Shown: positions 7,909 through 24,744 of the stretch, in pieces
How the letters are laid out: every line of letters begins with the position of its first letter
Numbering within the stretch: position 1 is the first letter of the stretch
Assembly (NCBI RefSeq): GCF_946885885.1
Contig: NZ_CAMPHN010000043.1
Span: 1-30,185 of the forward strand
DNA from: an uncultured Pseudomonas sp.
Lineage (GTDB): Bacteria > Pseudomonadota > Gammaproteobacteria > Pseudomonadales > Pseudomonadaceae
Length of the DNA: 30,185 nucleotides
Direction of reading: 5' to 3'
Translations under genes and position numbers: made by a program
Notes under the pieces: generated by a model
What the model was told of the DNA's origin: nothing
Databases searched by the model: none
What the model saw: the letters and a program-made list of their open reading frames with translations, nothing else

Positions 7909-9654
7909 TTAAAGAAACAGGCCCGGACCGGGCTTGGCACCTTCCGGGAATTTGACCCCGACTTTGCGCACTTTGTGGCCTTCCATCGCCGCCACCGTCC
8001 AGGTCAGGCCTTGCCATTCGACCTGGTCGCCGATCACTGGCTCGCCGCCGATCTCATGGGCGATAAAACGCCCCAGCGGCTGCTGGCCGTCGAGCCCGTC
8101 GAGCTTCAGGCCATAGAGCGCCGCCACCGCCGCGAGTTCGGCATCGCCTTCGAGCACGAAGTCGCCGAAGAAGCGCAAATCCTGGCCGCGTTTCGGCGCC
8201 TGGCTGAACAGTTTGCCGAGAGCCGGCAGGTCGTGTTCGTGGCCGACCACGCAGAGCAGATCGCCGGCTTGCAGCTTGGTACTGCCGGACGGGTGGAGCA
8301 GTTCCTTGCCGCGAAACAGCGCGGCGATGCGCGTGCCCTCGGGCATTTTCAGCTCGCGCAGAGCGGCGCCGATGCACCACTTTTCGGCGCCGAGGCGGTA
8401 GATGAACAGCTCCCACTGGCTGGTCGGGTGCACGTCCAGGCCAGCGCGCGACACCGGCGCCGGCTCCGGCGGGATGGTCACGCGCAACCAATTGGCGGCC
8501 CAGGGCAGGCTGGTGCCCTGCAACAGCAGCGACACCAGGACGATAAAGAACGCCACATTAAAGAACAGTTGAGCATTGGGCAGGCCGGCCATCAGCGGGA
8601 ATACCGCGAGAATGATCGGCACCGCGCCGCGCAGACCGACCCAGGCGATAAACAAGCGCTCGCGGTCATGGAAGGCGTGAAATGGCAGCAGGCCGATCAG
8701 GATCGACAGCGGCCGAGCGAACAGAATCATCCACAGCGCCAGGCCCAGTGCCGGCAAGGCGATCGGCAGCAATTCGTGGGGCGTGACCAGCAAACCGAGG
8801 ACCAGGAACATGCCGATCTGCGCCAGCCAGGCCAGGCCGTCGAGCATATGCAAAATACCGTGGCGCGAGCGGATCGGCCGGTAACCCAGCAGCAGCCCGC
8901 ACAGGTAGATGGCCAGGATGCCGCTGCCGCCGACCGCGTTGGTCACGGCGAAAATAATCAGGCCGCCACTGACCACCAGCAGCGGATAAAGGCCGTTGGC
9001 CAACTCCATACGGTTGACCAGATTGAGCAGCAGCCAGCCGCCGCCAAGACCGAACAACGCGCCTATGCCGAACTGCAGCAGCAATTGCAGCAGCAGCTCC
9101 CAGCTCAAACCGTGCTGGCCGTTGCCGAGCAGGGCGATCAGGGTCACGGTGAGGAACACCGCCATGGGGTCGTTGCTGCCGGACTCGATTTCCAGGGTCG
9201 CGCTGACCCGCTCGTTGAGGCCGCGCCCGCCGAGCAGGCTGAACACCGCGGCGGCGTCGGTGGAGCCGACGATGGCGCCGATCAACAGCCCTTCCATCCA
9301 GCTCAGGTCGAACAACCAGGCCGCCGCCACACCGGTCAGCCCGGCGGTGATCATCACCCCGATCGTGGCCAGCGACAGCGACGGCCAGAGCGCCACGCGG
9401 AAACTGGAAACCCGGGTGCGCATGCCGCCGTCGAGCAGAATGATCGCCAACGCCAGGTTGCCGACCAGATAGGCCAAGGGGTAATTATCGAAGACGATGC
9501 CGCCGGGACCGTCGGTGCCGGCGAGCATGCCTACGCCGAGGAAAATCACCAGGATGGGAATGCCGAAGCGCGAGCCGAATGCACTGACCAGAATGCTCAT
9601 GGCCACCAGCAATGCACCGATCAAAAACAGGTTGTTGATGGTGTTGGCGTCCAA
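7909..9654 (-). CDS. nhaP2: Potassium(sodium)/proton antiporter, CvrA/NhaP2 family
   Basis: This inner-membrane CPA1 antiporter exchanges K+ or Na+ for protons and helps control cell volume and cytoplasmic pH. The 581 residues (E. coli CvrA 578) hold about 12 membrane helices up to residue about 390 with the [12 protein letters not shown] and [12 protein letters not shown] motifs of the ion path. A cytosolic TrkA-C/RCK-type regulatory domain (about 400-480) and a CorC/HlyC-like C-terminal domain (about 490-575) follow. The start is a TTG at 9654 with GGAG 6-7 bases upstream; it gives the expected [16 protein letters not shown] amino terminus, so a weak start codon is likely real. It lies 86 bases upstream of the mechanosensitive channel gene on the same strand, a plausible osmotic/ion pair. 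Ion preference is not readable from sequence. Confidence 0.93.
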
Positions 9655-9766
9655 GGAAGGCTCCGAGCTGAAACGAAAGAGCGCCCCGCATGGCGCCTGC
9701 CGCCGATTCTAACCCGCGCCTTCGCGAGGCGGTCAAAAAAACCCTATCGACCGAGGGCCTGACCAA

Positions 9767-10330
9767 GTGCGGGCGGATAGGGCGAAGCTTTGTCCGCCTA
9801 TAGATGCGCCCCGTAAACATTTTGACGGTTATAGCAGCGATTGGACCTATCCCGGTAGCCCATTTAACGTTGGCGATCTGACCTTTGTACAAGGTCAAGA
9901 AAGCCTTATCGGTGGGCAGAGCAGTTACGGTTTGGCGCGCAATGTTCTTGTTGATAATTATGGTCGCGGTACAACGGTTTTGACTGCTGGCAATCATGGT
10001 CTGCTTGGTTTTAATGCTGCGAACTTGGGGAGGGTGGGCACCGTCACGTTCGAGTTGGTGACTAATCTTGGTGCATACTATTATCTCGAGGCGATACCTA
10101 AGGGGTCGGCTGGGCTTAGGTTCTTAGGCTTTATGGCGGGCGCTGGCGAATATTTCACCAGCTTCCGCTTTGGGGCCACGGGCAATAGTGGCGTTTGGAC
10201 GGGTGTTACTGACGTACAGCTCGGCAATATATCCCCAGTTCCCGAGCCAGAAACCTATGCCATGCTGCTGGCCGGTCTTGGCCTGATGGCGGGTATTGCT
10301 CGTCGTCGTAAGAAACAGTTGGTTGCCTGA
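9767..10330 (+). pseudogene. PEP-CTERM sorting-domain protein, 5'-truncated
   Basis: The carboxyl end is a textbook PEP-CTERM signal: VPEPETYAM, then a hydrophobic helix (LLAGLGLMAGI), then ARRRKK. Such signals direct secreted proteins to an exosortase, which cleaves them at the membrane. The preceding 140 or so residues are Gly/Tyr/Thr-rich with beta-strand character, as in secreted PEP-CTERM proteins. The open frame begins at GTG 9767, but its first 18 codons come from a repeat-like sequence and give no signal peptide. PEP-CTERM proteins need one, so the original 5' end is probably lost and real homology likely begins near base 9821. An alternative is that the gene uses a start I cannot see or that a rearranged leader is supplied in cis. 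It lies just upstream of the exosortase. Base composition (30 of 60 G+C at 9961-10020) is lower than in the core neighbours. Confidence 0.7.
9772..9798. repeat. Short REP-like hairpin at the left edge of the insert
   Basis: GGCGGA (9772-9777) and TCCGCC (9793-9798) bracket TAGGGCGAAGCTTTG. Sequences of this form recur between genes in Pseudomonas. It sits exactly where the core antiporter upstream region changes to AT-richer sequence, so it may mark the junction of an insertion or deletion. Confidence 0.45.
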
Positions 10331-10351
10331 ATTTCAGCGCTATAAACTGCG

Positions 10352-10379
10352 AAACCCCGCCCGTTGGCGGGTTTTTTTG
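10352..10379 (+). terminator. Intrinsic terminator after the PEP-CTERM gene
   Basis: CCCGCC (10356-10361), a CGTT loop and GGCGGG (10366-10371) are followed directly by a run of seven or eight T. This is a classical Rho-independent terminator 20-odd bases past the PEP-CTERM stop codon. It lies only 25 bases upstream of the exosortase start. Confidence 0.85.
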
Positions 10380-10404
10380 TTTGGCTTTATGAGGTTTGCT
10401 GCCC

Positions 10405-11340
10405 GTGCCTGCCGATACCCAGTGTTCTCCTGCGCCATCATCCATAGCTGTCGCTCAGCCTAGAGTTGCGCTGTTGATCCTTGGTTTGGGCTTGGCGATT
10501 CTGTATCTCCCTACGCTTTGGCGCCTGTTTAATGGGGTCTGGGGCGAAGATGGCCAGGCTCATGGGCCAATGATTTTGGCCATTGCCGCGTGGCTTATTT
10601 ATCGCGCATTGCCCGATTTGGTCGCGGCTGGGCAAGCCGACATTAAGCCCGCTGGGTTCCGCCAGTCGCGAGCAACTCTTGTGGCTGGCTGGGTTGTGCT
10701 GCTGGTCGGTTTGCTGCTTTATATTGTTGGGCGCTCGCAGGCTATTGATTTTTTTGAAATTGGCTCTCTTATCTGGGTGCTTGCCGGTTCGGTGCTATTG
10801 CTGTTTGGCGCTAAGGCGCTGCGATTAATCTGGTTTCCGCTGTTCTTTATGCTGTTTATGATTCCCTTGCCGGGCTTGCTGGTGGCCGCAATCACCATGC
10901 CGATGAAAATTGCCGTGTCGGTTTGTGCTGAGTGGATTCTCTACGCCTTTGGCTACCCAGTGGCCAGATCCGGCGTGATCTTGCAGGTTGGTCAGTATCA
11001 ATTGTTGGTCGCCGACGCCTGTGCCGGGCTGCATACCTTGCTGACCTTGGAAGCGCTGGGTTTGCTGTACCTGAACCTGTTTCGCCATGAGTCGTTATTA
11101 CGCAATGTCTCGCTGGCGCTGTTGATCATTCCTATCGCGTTTTCCTCGAACGTCATTCGGGTCATGGTGTTGTCGCTGATTACTTACTATTTTGGCGATG
11201 CGGCCGGCCAAGGCTATTTGCATATGTTCTCCGGAATGGTGTTGTTCCTTAGCGCTCTTTTATTAGTGGTGGGGGTGGACTCGTTGATTCGCTGGTTTGT
11301 TCGCGGCAGATCCCGTGCTGCGTCGGAGGCTGTGGCATGA
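10405..11340 (+). CDS. xrtB: Exosortase (probably type B)
   Basis: Exosortases are multi-pass inner-membrane cysteine proteases/transpeptidases that process PEP-CTERM proteins in bacteria making exopolysaccharide. The GTG at 10405 (311 residues) has GAGG 10 bases upstream; a TTG at 10396 would be too close to that site. About eight hydrophobic helices are visible. The family active site is complete: Cys206 in DACAGL, Arg252 in SSNVIRV, and His273 in YLHMFSG. EpsI is not fused to it but encoded separately just downstream, which together with the EpsD neighbour fits XrtB rather than XrtA or XrtD; the type is inferred. The gene overlaps epsI by 4 bases (ATGA). G+C is low for this chromosome (26 of 60 at 10741-10800), suggesting transfer. 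Confidence 0.9.
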   Translation: MPADTQCSPAPSSIAVAQPRVALLILGLGLAILYLPTLWRLFNGVWGEDGQAHGPMILAIAAWLIYRALPDLVAAGQADIKPAGFRQSRATLVAGWVVLLVGLLLYIVGRSQAIDFFEIGSLIWVLAGSVLLLFGAKALRLIWFPLFFMLFMIPLPGLLVAAITMPMKIAVSVCAEWILYAFGYPVARSGVILQVGQYQLLVADACAGLHTLLTLEALGLLYLNLFRHESLLRNVSLALLIIPIAFSSNVIRVMVLSLITYYFGDAAGQGYLHMFSGMVLFLSALLLVVGVDSLIRWFVRGRSRAASEAVA

Positions 11341-12017
11341 GTTCAATTAACAGTCGGGCCATCGCCATTCTGCTGGCCGTGGTGTTAGCCGCAGTGGTGG
11401 CGCTATTGGCTCGCCCAACCGAGCGCTTGGTCGAGCAGGTGGGGCCGCTTGAATTGGAAAGCTTGGTTCCCCGTGAATTCGCCGGTTGGCTGCTTGACGA
11501 GCGGCAGAGTGCGGCGGTGGTCAACCCGCAAGCGGCCGGCTTGCAAGGGCGGATCTATCAACAAGTGTTGTCGCGTACTTACATTCACGCGGCCAGTCAG
11601 CGCAGCATCATGTTGTCGATTGCCTATGGTGAGAATCAGAACCGCGCCAATGACCTGCATGTACCTGATGTCTGTTATTCAGCGGGAGGCTTCAGGATTG
11701 AGCATGCGGAGCGTGGGGATATTCAAACGTCGCAAGGCGTTATCCCGGTTAAGCGTCTGATCGCCCAGCGTTTGCAGCGCCGCGAGCCGCTGACTTACTG
11801 GACCATTATTGGCGATCAGGTGGCCACCAGTGCGGTGGGCTCCAAGCTGATTGCGCTGTCCTATGGCTTGCGCGGAACTGTGCCGGATGGAATGATCTTT
11901 CGCGTTTCTTCAGTTGGCGTGCCCGATGAACAGGCGTTCGCCAACCAACAAGAGTTTGTTAAAAACTTAATGGATGCGCTGCCTGACGCTGGCCGCAAAC
12001 GACTTGCAGGCCTTTAA
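11337..12017 (+). CDS. epsI: Exosortase-associated protein EpsI
   Basis: EpsI proteins accompany exosortases in exopolysaccharide loci; their exact biochemical role is unknown. The 226-residue product has one N-terminal membrane helix (about residues 6-26, IAILLAVVLAAVVALLA) and a periplasmic domain. The family hallmark is present: RANDLHVPDVCYSAGGFRIE, with the conserved His-x-Pro-x-x-Cys-Tyr pattern, then a hydrophilic stretch and the YWTIIGDQVATSA region. Its ATG overlaps the exosortase stop as ATGA, so translation is probably coupled. The next gene starts 39 bases downstream. In XrtA systems this domain is often fused to the exosortase, so a stand-alone EpsI supports the type B assignment. 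Confidence 0.88.
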   Translation: MSSINSRAIAILLAVVLAAVVALLARPTERLVEQVGPLELESLVPREFAGWLLDERQSAAVVNPQAAGLQGRIYQQVLSRTYIHAASQRSIMLSIAYGENQNRANDLHVPDVCYSAGGFRIEHAERGDIQTSQGVIPVKRLIAQRLQRREPLTYWTIIGDQVATSAVGSKLIALSYGLRGTVPDGMIFRVSSVGVPDEQAFANQQEFVKNLMDALPDAGRKRLAGL

Positions 12018-12056
12018 TGGGCTCTGCACACTTTAGTCAGTTCAATATGGGATTTT

Positions 12057-12971
12057 ATGCGAAGCAATTCACTTAACAATTTGCTACGGCCGGCCAGTCA
12101 GGTTGTCTCGGCCGTTATGGCGCTTGTACTGCTGGCGGCCTGTACGGATGAGTCGGCTGGCGGCGGTGCTTCTCAGGTGGCGGCCAAAGTTGACGGTGCA
12201 GAAATTACCCTGCATCAGGTTAACTATGTTTTATCTAAGGCAGGTAGCGTACCGCCAGAAGCGATTGATATGGCGCGTAAACAAGTGCTTGATCGTCTAA
12301 TAGAGCAAGAATTATTTGCAGCCAAAGCGGTTGAGGAAAAGCTTGATCGATCCCCGCAGACGTTGTTGGCTATCGAGCAGTCACGCCGTGAGATATTGGC
12401 CGCGGCTTATATGGATCAAGTATTAGCATCGGGGAAGAAGCTTAATAAGCGCGATGTCAGCACTTACTATTATCAAAACCCCGAGTTGTTTGCCGAGCGT
12501 AAGGTCTACAACCTTGAAGAAATAAGCTTTCCTATCGGTGTGGTATCGGTCGATGAACTTAAGGCGCTGGTTGCGCAGGGCAGTAGTCTTGAACAGTTGC
12601 AGGCATATCTTGAGCAAAAGAATGTCGACTTTAAGCGGAATGCCGGCGTAAGCCCTGCCGAAAAGCTACCGCTGGCGCATATCAAAGAATTGCACAACGC
12701 TGAAGAAGGGCAAATCATTGTGCTGAATAACGCCGGTGAAACCAGCATTCTGCAGATTGTCAGCACGAGTCGATTACCCGTTAGCGAGGCTGAAGTGGCC
12801 CCGGTAATTCAGCAGTTTCTGTTTAATCAGCTCGCGGCAGACTTGCATGCCAAGCAACTTAAGCCGTTAAAGGAGCAAGCCAAGATCGAATATATGGGCG
12901 TGTTCGCTGACTTGGCTAAGTCCTCGCCGACGTTGCCAGTTCCCCCCGCAACGCCGGTGACAGGGCAATAA
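12057..12971 (+). CDS. epsD: EpsD-family peptidyl-prolyl cis-trans isomerase lipoprotein
   Basis: This is a SurA/PpiC-like periplasmic folding factor of the type found in exosortase-linked exopolysaccharide clusters. The 304 residues start with a lipoprotein signal: a positively charged start, hydrophobic core and lipobox LLAAC, so Cys at about residue 29 would carry lipid. The SurA-N-like helical part (VAAKVDGAEITLHQVNYVL ... LDRLIEQELFAAKAVE) spans about 40-130, and a divergent parvulin domain (YNLEEISFPIG ... ETSILQIVSTSRLPVS) about 150-250. The tail is Pro-rich. The ribosome site is weak (GGGA-like). A counted sample at 12181-12240 has 26 of 60 G+C against 41 of 60 at 9241-9300 in the antiporter gene. 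In complete loci polysaccharide export and chain-length genes usually follow; here none do. Confidence 0.82.
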   Translation: MRSNSLNNLLRPASQVVSAVMALVLLAACTDESAGGGASQVAAKVDGAEITLHQVNYVLSKAGSVPPEAIDMARKQVLDRLIEQELFAAKAVEEKLDRSPQTLLAIEQSRREILAAAYMDQVLASGKKLNKRDVSTYYYQNPELFAERKVYNLEEISFPIGVVSVDELKALVAQGSSLEQLQAYLEQKNVDFKRNAGVSPAEKLPLAHIKELHNAEEGQIIVLNNAGETSILQIVSTSRLPVSEAEVAPVIQQFLFNQLAADLHAKQLKPLKEQAKIEYMGVFADLAKSSPTLPVPPATPVTGQ

Positions 12972-12982
12972 CATACAGTCCC

Positions 12983-13004
12983 GCGCTGCCCTCGGCAGCG
13001 CTTT
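12983..13004 (+). terminator. Hairpin after epsD, possible terminator
   Basis: GCGCTGCC (12983-12990), loop CTC and GGCAGCGC (12994-13001) form a perfect 8-bp stem followed by only three T. It begins 11 bases after the epsD stop, so it probably ends the xrtB-epsI-epsD transcript, perhaps weakly. Confidence 0.55.
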
Positions 13005-13318
13005 GCCGTCTGCTATGGCAACACGTTCAGGTCATGCACCCAGCTGCCAGCTTTGCCGGCGAACCCAGCTGGCGCGCTGGCTGACATAGGCGCTTGGCTT
13101 TCTGAGCGCACCATAAGCCCCATCGTTAAATGACCCAGGCGCGACCCGATGCTGTGCTGCCGATTTCTCTTTCTGAAGCCAGCTGTGCGGTTTGCCCCGA
13201 TGAACCTGCAATGGCGTGGCTCGGGTAAGATCCGAGGCCGTGAGTCGCAGCACCAAGCGCACCCGGATTGCATCCGGACTACCAGCCCGCTGTTGCGGGC
13301 CTTGCGCAAGAAACGCTC
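13005..13318. other. Unexplained gap between epsD and the acyl-CoA dehydrogenase
   Basis: About 315 bases contain no recognisable gene. A minus-strand frame (13013-13309, 98 codons) is open but has no convincing start signal or domain. Composition is GC-rich again, unlike the eps genes, so this is probably not part of the same insert. A small hairpin, CCGGAT-TGC-ATCCGG at 13263-13277, resembles pseudomonad REP sequences. Confidence 0.4.
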
Positions 13319-15121
13319 TTAGAACCAGGCGTCCCGCATACCCAGACAGGTGTCGTCGCGGGCTTCGAGCAACGCCAGGTCGTGGTGGCAGCTCGGCACT
13401 TCCCAGGTCAGGAAGTAGCGCGCGGCTTGCAACTTACCTTTATAGAAGTCGACGTCCGCGGGATTGCCGGCCGCCAACCCCTGTTCGGCCTTGATCGCCT
13501 GCTCCAGCCAGCGCCAGCCGATCACCATATGGCCGAAGACTTTCAGGTACAGCGCCGAGTTGGCCAGGCCCTGGTTGACCTTGCCACTCATCAAGTCGCC
13601 GAGCAGCGCCAGGGTCACCGTCGACAGCCGCGCCAGCAGTTGCTCCAGCGGTTCGCGCAGGGCATTCAGCGAGTCGTATGCGCTGGCCTGCTGGCAAGTG
13701 CCCTGGATCAGCTTGACCAGTTGCTTGAGCGCCGCACCGCCGTTCATCGACACCTTGCGCCCGAGCAGGTCGAGGGACTGGATGCCGTGGGTGCCTTCGT
13801 GGATCGGGTTGAGGCGGTTGTCGCGGTAGTACTGCTCCACCGGGTAATCGCGGGTGTAGCCGTGGCCGCCGAGAATCTGGATCGCCAGCTCGTTGGCCTT
13901 GAGGCAGAACTCCGAGGGCCAGGATTTGACGATCGGAGTGAGCAAATCGAGCAGCTCCAGGGCGGTCTGGCGCTCTTGCGCGGTTGTCAGGGTCTGGGTG
14001 TCGTCGAACAATCGCGCGGCATACAGGCCGAGATCGAAGGCGCCTTCCACGTAGGCCTTTTGCGTGAGCAGCATGCGCCGCACGTCGGCGTGCTCGACGA
14101 TCGATACTTGCGGGCTGGTCGGGTCCTTGCCGTCCGGCTGGCGGCCTTGCGGGCGCTGGCGGGCATAGTCCAGGGAATACAGGTAACCGGCGTAGCCGAG
14201 CATCACCGCGCCCATGCCGACGCCGATGCGCGCCTCGTTCATCATCTGGAACATATAGGACAGGCCGGCGTGCGGCTTGCCGACCAGGTAGCCGACGCAA
14301 TCGCCGTTATCGCCGAAATTCAATGCGGTGGAGGTAGTGCCGCGCCAGCCCATCTTGTGGAACAACCCGGCCAGCACCACGTCGTTACGCTTGCCCAGCG
14401 AGCCGTCATCGCCCACCAGAAACTTCGGCACGATAAACAGCGAGATGCCCTTCACCCCGGGCGGCGCGTCCGGCAGCTTGGCCAGCACCATGTGCACGAT
14501 GTTCTCGCTCAATGGATGGTCGCCGCCGGAGATAAAGATCTTGTTGCCCTTGATCCGGTAGCTGCCGTCGCCGGCCGGTTCGGCGCGGGTGCGGATATCC
14601 GACAGCGAGGAGCCGGCATGGGGTTCGGTCAGGGCCATGGTGCCGAAGAAGCGTCCTTCGATCATCGGTTGCAGAAAGCGCTGTTTATGCTCCTCGCTGC
14701 CGAAGGTTTCGATCAGGTTGGCCGCGCCCATGGTCAGGAATGGATAGGAAGTGGTCGCCGCGTTGGCCGATTGGAAATGCGCGAAACACGCCTGCGACAG
14801 CAGGTTCGGCAACTGCATGCCGCCGGCCTCGAACTCGCGGGTGGCGTTGAGGAAGCCAGCTTCGAGGAAGGCATCCACCGCCGGCTTGACCTCGGGGATC
14901 AGCACCGCGGCGCCGTCGACATACTCGGGCTCGTGCTCGTCGTTCTTACGGTTATGCGGGGCGAACAGGTTCTCGGCGATGCTGCGGGCGGTATCGATGG
15001 CCGCATCGAAAGTCTCGCGGCTGTGTTCGGCAAAGCGCTCGCGCTGGGTCAGGGCTTCGGCGTCGAGCACTTCATAAAGTTCGAAGGCCAGGTTGCGGGA
15101 ACTGAGCAGGGACTCGGACAT
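13319..15121 (-). CDS. Acyl-CoA dehydrogenase with C-terminal extension
   Basis: This FAD-dependent enzyme catalyses the first oxidation of fatty acyl-CoA (or a related thioester) in the cytoplasm. The 600 residues match the long Pseudomonas type, with an extra C-terminal domain beyond the roughly 380-residue core. The substrate/FAD motif TEPHAGSSLSDIRT is at about 175-188, the IKGNKIFISGGDH strand pair follows, and the catalytic base by alignment is Glu442 in NPIHEGTHGIQ. The ATG at 15121 has GGAGG 7 bases upstream. From memory this gene and the antiporter (7909-9654) are neighbours in P. aeruginosa PAO1 (PA5020/PA5021); here the exosortase genes separate them. The natural chain length is unknown. 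Confidence 0.93.
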   Translation of the reverse strand: MSESLLSSRNLAFELYEVLDAEALTQRERFAEHSRETFDAAIDTARSIAENLFAPHNRKNDEHEPEYVDGAAVLIPEVKPAVDAFLEAGFLNATREFEAGGMQLPNLLSQACFAHFQSANAATTSYPFLTMGAANLIETFGSEEHKQRFLQPMIEGRFFGTMALTEPHAGSSLSDIRTRAEPAGDGSYRIKGNKIFISGGDHPLSENIVHMVLAKLPDAPPGVKGISLFIVPKFLVGDDGSLGKRNDVVLAGLFHKMGWRGTTSTALNFGDNGDCVGYLVGKPHAGLSYMFQMMNEARIGVGMGAVMLGYAGYLYSLDYARQRPQGRQPDGKDPTSPQVSIVEHADVRRMLLTQKAYVEGAFDLGLYAARLFDDTQTLTTAQERQTALELLDLLTPIVKSWPSEFCLKANELAIQILGGHGYTRDYPVEQYYRDNRLNPIHEGTHGIQSLDLLGRKVSMNGGAALKQLVKLIQGTCQQASAYDSLNALREPLEQLLARLSTVTLALLGDLMSGKVNQGLANSALYLKVFGHMVIGWRWLEQAIKAEQGLAAGNPADVDFYKGKLQAARYFLTWEVPSCHHDLALLEARDDTCLGMRDAWF

Positions 15122-18879: not shown

Positions 18880-19353
18880 TTAATGTTGCTGCAGCTGCGC
18901 CTGCTTGGCGCGTTCGACGTATTGCTGATACTGGGGAATGGCTATGGCTGCCAGGATGCCAATCACGGCGACGAAGATGAACGCGCAGACTATCGCCAGT
19001 ACCGCGTTAGAGCCACTTTTGACGTTGCCGTACTTGCGCTGCCAGTTACTCTCATTGGTGCAGAAAAACACGATGCTCTCGATCAAGGAAACAATGGAAG
19101 GTATTCCGCTTCCCCAAAACAGCAGATAAAACACCCCCCACCATTGCCCCAGGTAGAAACGGTGAATGCCGAGGCCACCCAGGAAAAGCGCCAACACGCC
19201 GGCGGTGATTTTGCTTTTGGGGTTGAGATTTTGGCTGGCCAGACAGCTCGGGCATTGGTTCGCATCGGCGGCTATCTTACTGCCGCACTGGCGGCAAAAT
19301 ACGCTGGCGATGGTCAAGTCGGCCTGAGGGGCCTGATAGGGCTGGGCATCCAT
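18880..19353 (-). CDS. Zinc-ribbon / TM2-domain membrane protein with pilin-like C-terminal helix
   Basis: The 157-residue product from the ATG at 19353 has three parts. A zinc ribbon carries Cys20, Cys23, Cys34 and Cys37 (CRQC ... CPSC). A TM2 domain follows (about 48-97), with ALFLGGLGIHRFYLGQWWGV and a second helix. The carboxyl end (about 118-151) reads GILAAIAIPQYQQYVERAKQ, closely like the conserved N-terminal helix of type IV pilins, including the IPQYQ turn, but placed internally and without the Gly-Phe-Thr-Leu-Ile-Glu processing site. A longer frame to 19458 adds residues without a ribosome site. No function is known; TM2 proteins are small membrane proteins of diverse roles. It is convergent with rlmJ and separate from the next gene by about 220 bases. 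Confidence 0.8.
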   Translation of the reverse strand: MDAQPYQAPQADLTIASVFCRQCGSKIAADANQCPSCLASQNLNPKSKITAGVLALFLGGLGIHRFYLGQWWGVFYLLFWGSGIPSIVSLIESIVFFCTNESNWQRKYGNVKSGSNAVLAIVCAFIFVAVIGILAAIAIPQYQQYVERAKQAQLQQH

Positions 19354-19536
19354 GATCGTAGTCTTCCATTTCGGTTGGGCGCGCACTCTATCAAGGCAAT
19401 TTGATATCGCCAAGGTCGGGCAGTTGGCTGTTTGGTGTTCCGGAAAGAGAAACCGCAACCGCCACCCCCGGCTGGCTGAAAGCTGGAGTGAGGAGGGGGT
19501 GACCGGGGAATGGCCCTGCTTTGAGCGCTCACTAGA

Positions 19537-19564
19537 GCCAGGTTACTGAGTGCAATAACCTGGC
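19537..19564. other. Inverted repeat downstream of the 219-residue secreted protein gene
   Basis: GCCAGGTTA (19537-19545) and TAACCTGGC (19556-19564) are perfect 9-base arms around a 10-base loop, 12 bases past the stop of the gene at 19577. It may act as a terminator or mRNA-stabilising hairpin, though no clear T run follows on the minus strand. Confidence 0.45.
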
Positions 19565-19576
19565 CTGGCTAGGGTG

Positions 19577-20236
19577 TTATTGCGCTTTGCCGTAGATGGT
19601 TACTACCACTTCATCATTGGTGCGTACATCCAAACCTTGTTTCTTGCAGTCGATGCTGACCGAGTTGGTTTTGAACGTCAGCCGTTGCCCTGTGGTTCTG
19701 TTCTGGCAGGATGCCTTGAGTGTATTTACACCATTGACATCGACGCCCATCGGCGGAACCAAGTTGTAGTTAATTGCGCCGTGAAGTGCGGCGACATTAC
19801 CTTCGCAATGCTGTTCGAATGTTGCGCTTAACGAGGTCAAGGTTCCATCGGTGTCATAGGACACTTCGCTTACTTTGAACTTTCCGGTAAGCGTATTGCA
19901 GCCTCGCCCATTGCCGCTAAAGTTGAGGCCCGGTTTGTCGGCCGGTTGAAAGGGGAAGCGCGCGGCCTGCTCGTAGACTCCAGGCTGTATTTGCGCATTT
20001 CCAGGGGCAGCCAGATCCAGTGTCCACCATGTATTGCTGTTTGTGATCGAGACCGTGATGCCCTTGTCGAAGTTGGTCGAATACTTGAATGCCGAGTCGA
20101 CATCCGTATAAGTGTAGTTTTGGCCTTGGCCGATATAGTCGCCGGGCTCGCTTGTCAGTGTCAGCTGGCTACCTGCAGTGGCAATCGAGCTGGCTGTTAT
20201 AAGTAACGAGGTGGCCAAGTATTTAAGGCTTTGCAT
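19577..20236 (-). CDS. Secreted protein of unknown function
   Basis: I do not recognise a named family. The 219-residue product has a clear Sec signal peptide (MQSLKYLATSLLITASSIATA, probable cleavage after residue 21), and a mature part rich in beta-strand, Thr, Asn and Gly. Four cysteines (113, 144, 177, 197) could form two disulfides. Motifs GDYIGQGQ (about 32-39), PFQPADKPGLNFSGNGRGCN (about 95-114) and FEQHCEG (140-146) look like conserved blocks of secreted proteins I have seen in other proteobacteria, but I cannot name the domain. The ATG at 20236 has AAGGA about 8 bases upstream. A counted sample at 20041-20100 is 30 of 60 G+C, lower than the core genes, so recent acquisition is possible. 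Expected location: periplasm or outside. Confidence 0.8.
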   Translation of the reverse strand: MQSLKYLATSLLITASSIATAGSQLTLTSEPGDYIGQGQNYTYTDVDSAFKYSTNFDKGITVSITNSNTWWTLDLAAPGNAQIQPGVYEQAARFPFQPADKPGLNFSGNGRGCNTLTGKFKVSEVSYDTDGTLTSLSATFEQHCEGNVAALHGAINYNLVPPMGVDVNGVNTLKASCQNRTTGQRLTFKTNSVSIDCKKQGLDVRTNDEVVVTIYGKAQ

Positions 20237-20479
20237 ACGTCATTCCTTGAGGTTTAAGTTACACGGCCATGTGCAAATGCATGTCAAACGTCGGTAATGC
20301 ATGGTACGGCTGGAGGCCGTATTAAATCCGAAGATGGTTCAGGTCCGTGGGTTGGGAAGATTAGCACGCGGACAACTACCCTAGTTGTGGCGGCTTAAAA
20401 GTGTGATCTGCGTCGCTCTGTGCGCCTTTTTGAGCGGCATCGCACGGTCTGTACTCCCCGTACGACGCCATCGGTTTCA

Positions 20480-24216: not shown

Positions 24217-24744
24217 ATGCGATTGCGACTGACAAGAAAACTAATGACCGCTGTGTTGCTGGGAGGTTGCCTGGCGGCAACGACCGGCTGGGCCGCGGAG
24301 CCCTCCGTCGGCTTGAGCAGTTCCGAACAGGCACGCTACCTGACGGAGCTCAAGCGCCTGTACCTGACCGAGAACGATCGTCAGGCGTTGTTGGCGCACA
24401 GCAACGACCTGCTGAAGACCTACGCTTTGCGTTCGGCCTATCAAGTCGGTCAGACCGAACGCAAGGATCTGATCTATCAGTTGGCGCTGGGCGCGCCGGG
24501 CGAGTTGGTGTTGCGCGAAGAAACCCGCGATCCGCAGAGTGGCAACGTGGCGGTGCACAACCAGCGGATAAGCCTGTACGGGGTCGATCCCTTTATCCAA
24601 TACGACTGCCCGCGCTCGGGTATCAGCTGTGTGTTGAACAACCCGGCCGACGGCCGTCCGTTGTTGACCATAGTGCGCGATCACCAGGGCGCCGCCGAAC
24701 TGGCCAAGGCGCTGAGCTTTCTGATTCGTAATCTACAGAAGTAA
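24217..24744 (+). CDS. Conserved small secreted hypothetical protein
   Basis: I do not recognise a functional family. The 175-residue product starts with a signal peptide (MRLRLTRKLMTAVLLGGCLAATTGWA, probable cleavage at about residue 26; a lipobox-like GGC is present but followed by Leu, so lipidation is uncertain). The mature part is mixed alpha/beta, with an acidic/helical segment (SSSEQARYLTELKRLYLTEN) and a region YGVDPFIQYDCPRSGISCVLNNP containing two cysteines, which may form a disulfide. AAGGGTG just upstream supports the ATG at 24217. It is divergent from dipA and convergent with aceF. Confidence 0.78.
   Translation: MRLRLTRKLMTAVLLGGCLAATTGWAAEPSVGLSSSEQARYLTELKRLYLTENDRQALLAHSNDLLKTYALRSAYQVGQTERKDLIYQLALGAPGELVLREETRDPQSGNVAVHNQRISLYGVDPFIQYDCPRSGISCVLNNPADGRPLLTIVRDHQGAAELAKALSFLIRNLQK

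Follow-up and report, generated by a model that had tools for sequence, protein, structure and literature searches.

An exosortase B cassette fragment, probably relocated from mtgA, between two core genes of a Pseudomonas-like contig

The 30,185-nt stretch analyzed here (the window) is Pseudomonas-like in type and carries, between the core genes for a potassium/proton antiporter and an acyl-CoA dehydrogenase, a 3.3-3.5-kb insert with genes for exosortase B (XrtB), EpsI, EpsD and a PEP-CTERM substrate protein. This insert is probably a relocated fragment of an exosortase cassette linked to mtgA (monofunctional transglycosylase), and it may act as a minimal sorting cassette on substrates encoded elsewhere. 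The enzyme looks intact and its own substrate is cut, so the substrates are probably encoded elsewhere in the genome. We favor a minimal sorting cassette over a dead remnant, with its activity, its substrates and a polysaccharide in the host all as predictions. The protein families of the cassette are known; its form is new: a four-gene cassette occurs at three Pseudomonas sites, at two of which it comes with no polysaccharide genes, and one of these two holds a relocated, broken fragment.

A foreign block at a conserved junction

An initial annotation of the window had described xrtB, epsI, epsD and a PEP-CTERM gene at 9767..12971 as an AT-rich insert at a conserved junction, on the strand opposite to its neighbors. 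Names, coordinates and orientation all hold, as family scores exceed the curated cut-offs (Table 1) and four plus-strand open reading frames (9767-10330, 10396-11340, 11337-12017 and 12057-12971) lie between two minus-strand flanking genes. The position of the insert was right as well, but it is wider than described (Table 1).

Comparison of the junction across relatives, which that annotation had asked for, bears out the insertion. The antiporter stretch has a DNA match in all 398 Pseudomonas genomes of our sample, which was drawn from a larger group, and the junction was read in the 30 best antiporter loci among them. The antiporter and acyl-CoA dehydrogenase genes are direct neighbors in all 30, 130-367 bp apart, and the insert occurs in none. 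Homology on the left continues to 9739-9745 in 22 loci and ends earlier, at 9643-9714, in eight; to the right of the insert, 29 loci match again from 13305-13321 onward and one (L049) from 13238. Beside the right edge lies a sequence resembling a doublet of repetitive extragenic palindromes (REP), of which the half at 13262-13282 gives one match, against none in 100 shuffles. Because REP doublets stand in the same intergenic place at two of the 30 empty sites (L048 and L049), the REP-like sequence is probably part of the target site. Elsewhere, locus L072 of the relative G223 has a REP doublet at 2246-2301, immediately past the end of mtgA.

Base composition also sets the block apart. The earlier counts of G+C in 60 bases, 26 and 26 inside the insert against 41 at 9241-9300, are exact, and larger scales agree with them: G+C is 0.541 in the insert, compared with 0.636 to its left and 0.620 to its right. 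The five AT-richest 3.2-kb segments all start at 9651-9851 (G+C 0.534-0.537), while segments of that size clear of the insert average 0.624 (standard deviation 0.023, minimum 0.567). The G+C at third codon positions (GC3) is 0.51-0.63 in the four insert genes and 0.81-0.86 in mscK, rlmJ and the antiporter, acyl-CoA dehydrogenase, major facilitator superfamily and LysR genes. Some other window genes also lie below this upper range, among them msrA (0.75), aceF (0.76), 24217-24744 (0.76), a GGDEF-EAL gene (0.79), a TM2 gene (0.69) and 19577-20236 (0.61).

The origin of the block is indicated by a 3' remnant of mtgA that the initial annotation left out of its gene list. In tblastx comparisons, the C-terminus of mtgA matches 13038-13103, mostly over 21-22 codons, in all 20 mtgA loci compared (18 relatives, P. 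fluvialis, and a further Pseudomonas genome, G241). The best DNA match is 86% over 44 nt (L086), and by eye the reading of the final codons shifts to a different frame and reaches a stop at 13013. The remnant is convergent with epsD, as is mtgA in P. fluvialis S00202 (locus L001), where mtgA (TIGR02070, 308.6 bits, cut-off 182.65) touches epsD and the cassette is preceded by rpoH (408.2 bits, cut-off 323.1) and one gene without a family match, which we take to be PA0377-like from the gene order of P. aeruginosa. This PA0377-like gene adjoins mtgA without a cassette in 15 of the 20 loci, G241 included; the remaining five are P. fluvialis itself, two in which rpoH and not the PA0377-like protein was matched, and two in which neither was. 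Because the window holds an mtgA remnant and the same four genes stand beside mtgA in P. fluvialis, the insert would most simply be a piece of an mtgA-linked cassette whose two breakpoints both fall within genes.

Intact enzyme genes and a truncated substrate gene

Among the 18 models matched by the window's XrtB, TIGR03113 is the best. The open reading frame begins at TTG 10396, and the 311-residue homologue P0001 starts at GTG 10405. Cysteine, arginine and histidine form the proposed exosortase active site, and the corresponding residues, numbered from TTG 10396, are Cys209 (11020-11022), Arg255 (11158-11160) and His276 (11221-11223). All three are kept in 132 of 132 aligned XrtB rows, the window included, and a type-B epsI follows xrtB directly with a 4-base overlap. 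By score, residues and EpsI partner, the window enzyme is a member of XrtB, with predicted protease/transpeptidase activity on a PEP-CTERM tail. A search of solved structures gave no sequence match for it.

The three enzyme genes run for ~2.5 kb without a stop or frameshift. Compared with P. fluvialis, nonsynonymous divergence (dN) is 0.22-0.25 at a synonymous divergence (dS) of ~1.7 (xrtB 0.224/1.73; epsI 0.248/1.72), and dS is saturated for epsD. XrtB, EpsI and EpsD thus look intact at the level of their coding sequences.

The PEP-CTERM frame was assigned to the right family by the initial annotation, which missed that the gene is 5'-truncated. It scores 27.7 bits with TIGR02595 (cut-off 16) and exceeds the PF07589 cut-off of 20.7, and its C-terminus combines a PEP motif, a hydrophobic stretch and a basic cluster. 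Full-length homologues (P0122-P0125) have 213-220 residues, with ~50 extra N-terminal residues that include, by eye, a signal-peptide-like start. Similarity to them begins at residue 19 of the window frame, which opens after a stop and by eye has no hydrophobic start. Judged from these alignments, the window gene is broken at its 5' end and its signal peptide lost. The cluster of the truncated protein counts three sequences on five contigs, the window's own probably among them, so the truncation is not a single assembly error. The earlier choice between a remnant and a minimal system is consequently a mixed one, since the substrate gene is a remnant and the enzyme genes look intact.

A predicted structure of the full-length homologue P0122 is a beta-sandwich (mean predicted local distance difference test 80.5, predicted template modeling score 0.70). 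Many of the 50 PDB rows listed for it are carbohydrate-binding modules, with weak similarity (query TM-score 0.26-0.39, root-mean-square deviation 5-14); two matches reach E<=0.001, the second being a flagellar sheath protein. As these matches are weak, no conclusion on the substrate fold follows from them.

Table 1. Features of the insert and its flanks, in window coordinates
Feature	Position	Strand	Evidence or remark
Left flank, potassium/proton antiporter gene (core)	7909..9654	-	NF003714 1035.9 bits, cut-off 471
Insert, approximate	9742..13237	n/a	Left break 9742 to ~9820, right break ~13103 to 13237
PEP-CTERM substrate gene, 5'-truncated	9821..10330	+	Frame from GTG 9767, homology from ~9821; PF07589 36.9 bits
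PEP-CTERM sorting tag, reads VPEPETYAMLLAGLGLMAGIARRRKK	10235..10312	+	PF07589, residues 157-182
Terminator-like hairpin with T run, between substrate gene and xrtB	10356..10378	+	
xrtB, exosortase B	10405..11340	+	TIGR03113 377.4 bits, cut-off 275
epsI, type B	11337..12017	+	NF045609 245.8 bits, cut-off 220
epsD, peptidyl-prolyl isomerase family	12057..12971	+	TIGR02925 212.2 bits, cut-off 108.9
mtgA, degraded 3' end	13013..13103	-	13038-13103 by similarity, to 13013 by eye
REP doublet-like sequence	13216..13282		Half 13262-13282 tested, other half by eye
Right flank, acyl-CoA dehydrogenase gene (core)	13319..15121	-	Pfam acyl-CoA dehydrogenase domains; adjoins antiporter in 30/30 loci

Relatives of the cassette

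Exosortases are uncommon in Pseudomonas, as the initial annotation had stated: they occur in 10 of the 398 genomes, and XrtB in only two, P. fluvialis (G001, 373.1 bits) and G241 (375.1 bits). What it had missed is that both genomes with the same cassette possess a second exosortase, XrtD (559.7 and 556.7 bits, cut-off 400), together with polysaccharide genes. Their XrtD loci encode a PrsT-like protein, an ATPase-like protein and a WcaJ-type transferase, with PrsT and ATPase scores under the curated cut-offs. The eight other exosortase-bearing genomes have one exosortase each. Exosortase Q (XrtQ) was typed in two of these eight loci (L024-L031), and the C-terminal ends of the other six look similar by eye.

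In antiporter DNA, P. fluvialis, G241 and the window are about equally distant from one another (82-83%). A quick tree of 132 XrtB sequences, built without bootstrap and with some long branches, places the window in a 36-row clade with 35 metagenome proteins (Shimodaira-Hasegawa-like approximate likelihood ratio test, SH-aLRT, 99), sister to P. fluvialis XrtB and P0039 (38 rows, SH-aLRT 96). These 35 proteins are 84-96% identical to the window XrtB, and 33 of them are 306-320 residues long. The XrtB of G241 falls in a separate 11-row clade and is 61% identical to that of the window. Among 194 relatives of P. fluvialis, seven match at E<=1e-20 and only G001 itself exceeds 34% identity; among 144 relatives of G289, a search without a positive control gave none at E<=1e-40. 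Both samples overlap the 398-genome sample. A scan of genome contigs for exact peptide words yielded 13 loci, one of them from Pseudomonas (P. fluvialis), and missed G241. Among the titles listed by literature searches on exosortase B, on exosortase with PEP-CTERM in Pseudomonas and on EpsI/EpsD, none is about XrtB in Pseudomonas.

The P. fluvialis cassette is the closest counterpart. It shares the order PEP-CTERM - xrtB - epsI - epsD and the hairpin after the substrate gene, and its XrtB is 70% identical to that of the window (XrtB 373.1, EpsI-B 258.1, EpsD 208.0 bits). Unlike the window, it has an intact substrate gene of another passenger type (NF038127, 122.1 bits) and sits between rpoH and mtgA. 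The genome holds four PEP-CTERM genes over the cut-off, of which three are solitary and lie away from the cassette, each, by eye, beginning with a signal-peptide-like segment and ending in a similar tail; a separate XrtD polysaccharide locus is also present. The earlier suggestion of substrates encoded elsewhere therefore fits P. fluvialis, and for the window's host it stays a prediction. One solitary gene (L017, 1036-1596) and the end of a catalase/peroxidase gene are ~100 bp apart; the metagenome proteins P0141, P0143 and P0145 have the same passenger type as this solitary gene. Upstream of the P. fluvialis XrtD locus, a stretch of ~16 kb (L066 143-16453) has long open frames in which a G-Q-R/L-R-G pattern recurs by eye; these frames probably result from reading a gene for a giant repetitive protein on its opposite strand.

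G241 (locus L065) has the same four-gene order (XrtB 375.1, EpsI-B 230.2, EpsD 200.3 bits), but its cassette is adjacent to, and divergent from, xrtD with its PrsT-like, ATPase-like and WcaJ-type genes, and its XrtB belongs to another clade. The XrtD polysaccharide locus there (L065 8898-17024), divergent to the XrtB cassette, also encodes two VPLPA/VPLPG-tailed proteins.

Beyond Pseudomonas, the classical system is that of EpsH (Haft et al. 2006, PMC1569441). As that paper describes it, an exosortase is likewise paired with substrates that carry PEP-CTERM-type tails, and in Methylobacillus sp. 12S epsI lies directly downstream of epsH, as in the window. The same paper places 90% of EpsH homologues near polysaccharide genes, which makes solitary exosortases a minority that was already known. 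The window differs from this system in having no neighboring polysaccharide genes and a local substrate without a signal peptide. A complete PEP-CTERM/exosortase locus has adjacent polysaccharide synthesis and export genes and belongs to a genome with more than two PEP-CTERM genes; over the cut-off, P. fluvialis has four and G241 one. The window's block does not amount to such a complete locus: no polysaccharide gene stands beside it, just as initially annotated, and its flanks are the antiporter and acyl-CoA dehydrogenase genes.

Betaproteobacterial loci from Azoarcus (L002), Ideonella (L003) and Burkholderiales (L010) encode XrtB family members of 53-62% identity, and L003 also has a type-B epsI after xrtB (272.0 bits). 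Unlike the window, these loci have export/chain-length genes before xrtB: EpsE-EpsF-EpsG-like in L003 (EpsG 155.2, below the cut-off), EpsF-EpsG in L002 and EpsE-EpsF in L010. A fourth locus (L009) has glycosyltransferase-like and flippase-like neighbors with scores below the cut-off. On plasmids, XrtB-related matches occur in three of 72,556 records, two annotated xrtB and one xrtV. Plasmid pSna507_unt12 of Sphaerotilus sulfidivorans resembles the window in carrying xrtB-epsI with no annotated polysaccharide gene within 7 kb; it differs in being plasmid-borne, at 56% identity, with no epsD or PEP-CTERM gene annotated alongside.

Relocation, function and alternatives

The proposed history starts from a minimal exosortase B cassette (substrate gene, terminator-like hairpin, xrtB, epsI, epsD), present in a few Pseudomonas. 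A piece reaching from inside the substrate gene to ~90 bp inside the neighboring mtgA would have moved from an mtgA-linked locus into the antiporter/acyl-CoA dehydrogenase intergenic region, beside the REP-like sequence. The recombination responsible would have left behind neither linking repeats nor a transposase. The enzyme genes would have survived and the local substrate would have been destroyed. In the general exosortase model, a tail retains the exported protein, the exosortase cleaves it, and the protein is transferred onward. Accordingly worded for the window's host, genes elsewhere in the genome would encode exported proteins ending in a VPEPETYAMLLAGLGLMAG-RRRK-like tail, which would retain them in the inner membrane; XrtB, through Cys, Arg and His, would cut the tail and hand the protein to the matrix or the cell surface, assisted by EpsI and EpsD, and a polysaccharide would come from another locus.

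Several observations weigh against a working, relocated cassette. The insert has no substrate bearing a signal peptide, and the selection seen in the comparison with P. fluvialis may date from before the move. No promoter-like site occurs on the plus strand of 9600-13400, with three on the minus strand against 2.3 expected. The cassette has lost its own upstream region, so expression of xrtB is putative only. A terminator-like hairpin also stands ahead of xrtB. Hairpins occupy the same place between substrate gene and xrtB in P. fluvialis and, by eye, in G241; since terminator-like sites in the region number 5, against 5.1 in shuffles, the case for the hairpin rests on this repeated position. 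G241, in turn, has a distant XrtB and a single PEP-CTERM gene over the cut-off, inside the cassette, although its 2.9-Mb genome may be incomplete. Sigma-54 sites are reported for many PEP-CTERM genes in PMC1569441; a simple consensus scan without a positive control found none scoring at least 8/11 in the cassettes of the window, P. fluvialis or G241, or ahead of the solitary substrate genes of P. fluvialis.

An alternative is a dead or dying remnant: the fragment would have arrived by chance, deprived of its promoter and substrate, and its enzyme genes would be intact only because the move is recent. The breaks inside genes at both ends, the absence of a promoter-like site on the plus strand, the truncated substrate gene, the decayed mtgA tail and the foreign composition all agree with such a history. 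It is nonetheless unlikely given the uninterrupted xrtB-epsI-epsD frames with their active-site residues, the recurrence of the truncated form on five contigs and the near-uniform length of XrtB in close metagenome proteins. Less probable still is a spare partial duplicate, in which the host's complete cassette would still stand at mtgA and the window would hold an extra, ectopic fragment. The mtgA remnant does point to an mtgA-linked source, and P. fluvialis has its cassette there; however, only P0001 and a shorter form, P0037, are identical to the window among the 120 XrtB listed, the next being 96%, and 15 of the 20 mtgA loci lack a cassette between mtgA and the gene on the rpoH side. Cargo of a mobile element (a transposon, an integron cassette or a genomic island with integrase) is very improbable and largely refuted. 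The cassette does occupy three different places in three Pseudomonas lineages, and one of the three plasmid records is mobilizable and carries xrtB-epsI. Yet the two edges share no 8-mer, direct or inverted, and show no target-site duplication or convincing terminal repeats; no transposase or integrase was noticed among the insert's reading frames (those beyond the four genes and the mtgA tail judged by eye), and the insert has no phage match.

A more general idea, which we put forward tentatively and consider rather doubtful, is that in these Pseudomonas the position before xrtB serves as an exchangeable slot for substrates: passengers that are unrelated but share one nearly constant tail of ~33 residues would alternate ahead of a fixed xrtB-epsI-epsD core, and this module without polysaccharide genes would rely on a matrix made under XrtD. 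Twelve substrates read, of 119 listed besides the window's, show four passenger types and one nearly constant tail. The length of the longest contig equals that of a listed PEP-CTERM protein (119) for 8 of 35 XrtB in the window's clade and 1 of 83 others (Fisher p = 2e-4), with the limits that equal contig sizes are an indirect sign of linkage, that the two groups are related to the query to different degrees and that the numbers were typed by hand. XrtD accompanies XrtB in both XrtB-bearing genomes.

If a relocated minimal sorting cassette is the right reading, a three-gene XrtB core at varied sites without polysaccharide genes, with scattered substrates in a relative, would mean that the sorting enzyme can be separated from its matrix. 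The cultured P. fluvialis has a single XrtB, a single XrtD and four clear substrates of the XrtB type, and would offer a small, tractable genetic system for addressing how exosortases act on their substrates and what EpsI and EpsD contribute.

Apart from the insert, the window has a second AT-rich stretch at 19100-20450 (G+C 0.54), between the TM2-domain gene and msrA. It contains the minus-strand gene 19577-20236 (GC3 0.61), which encodes a secreted-looking protein of 219 residues without a Pfam match, and it is possibly another insert.

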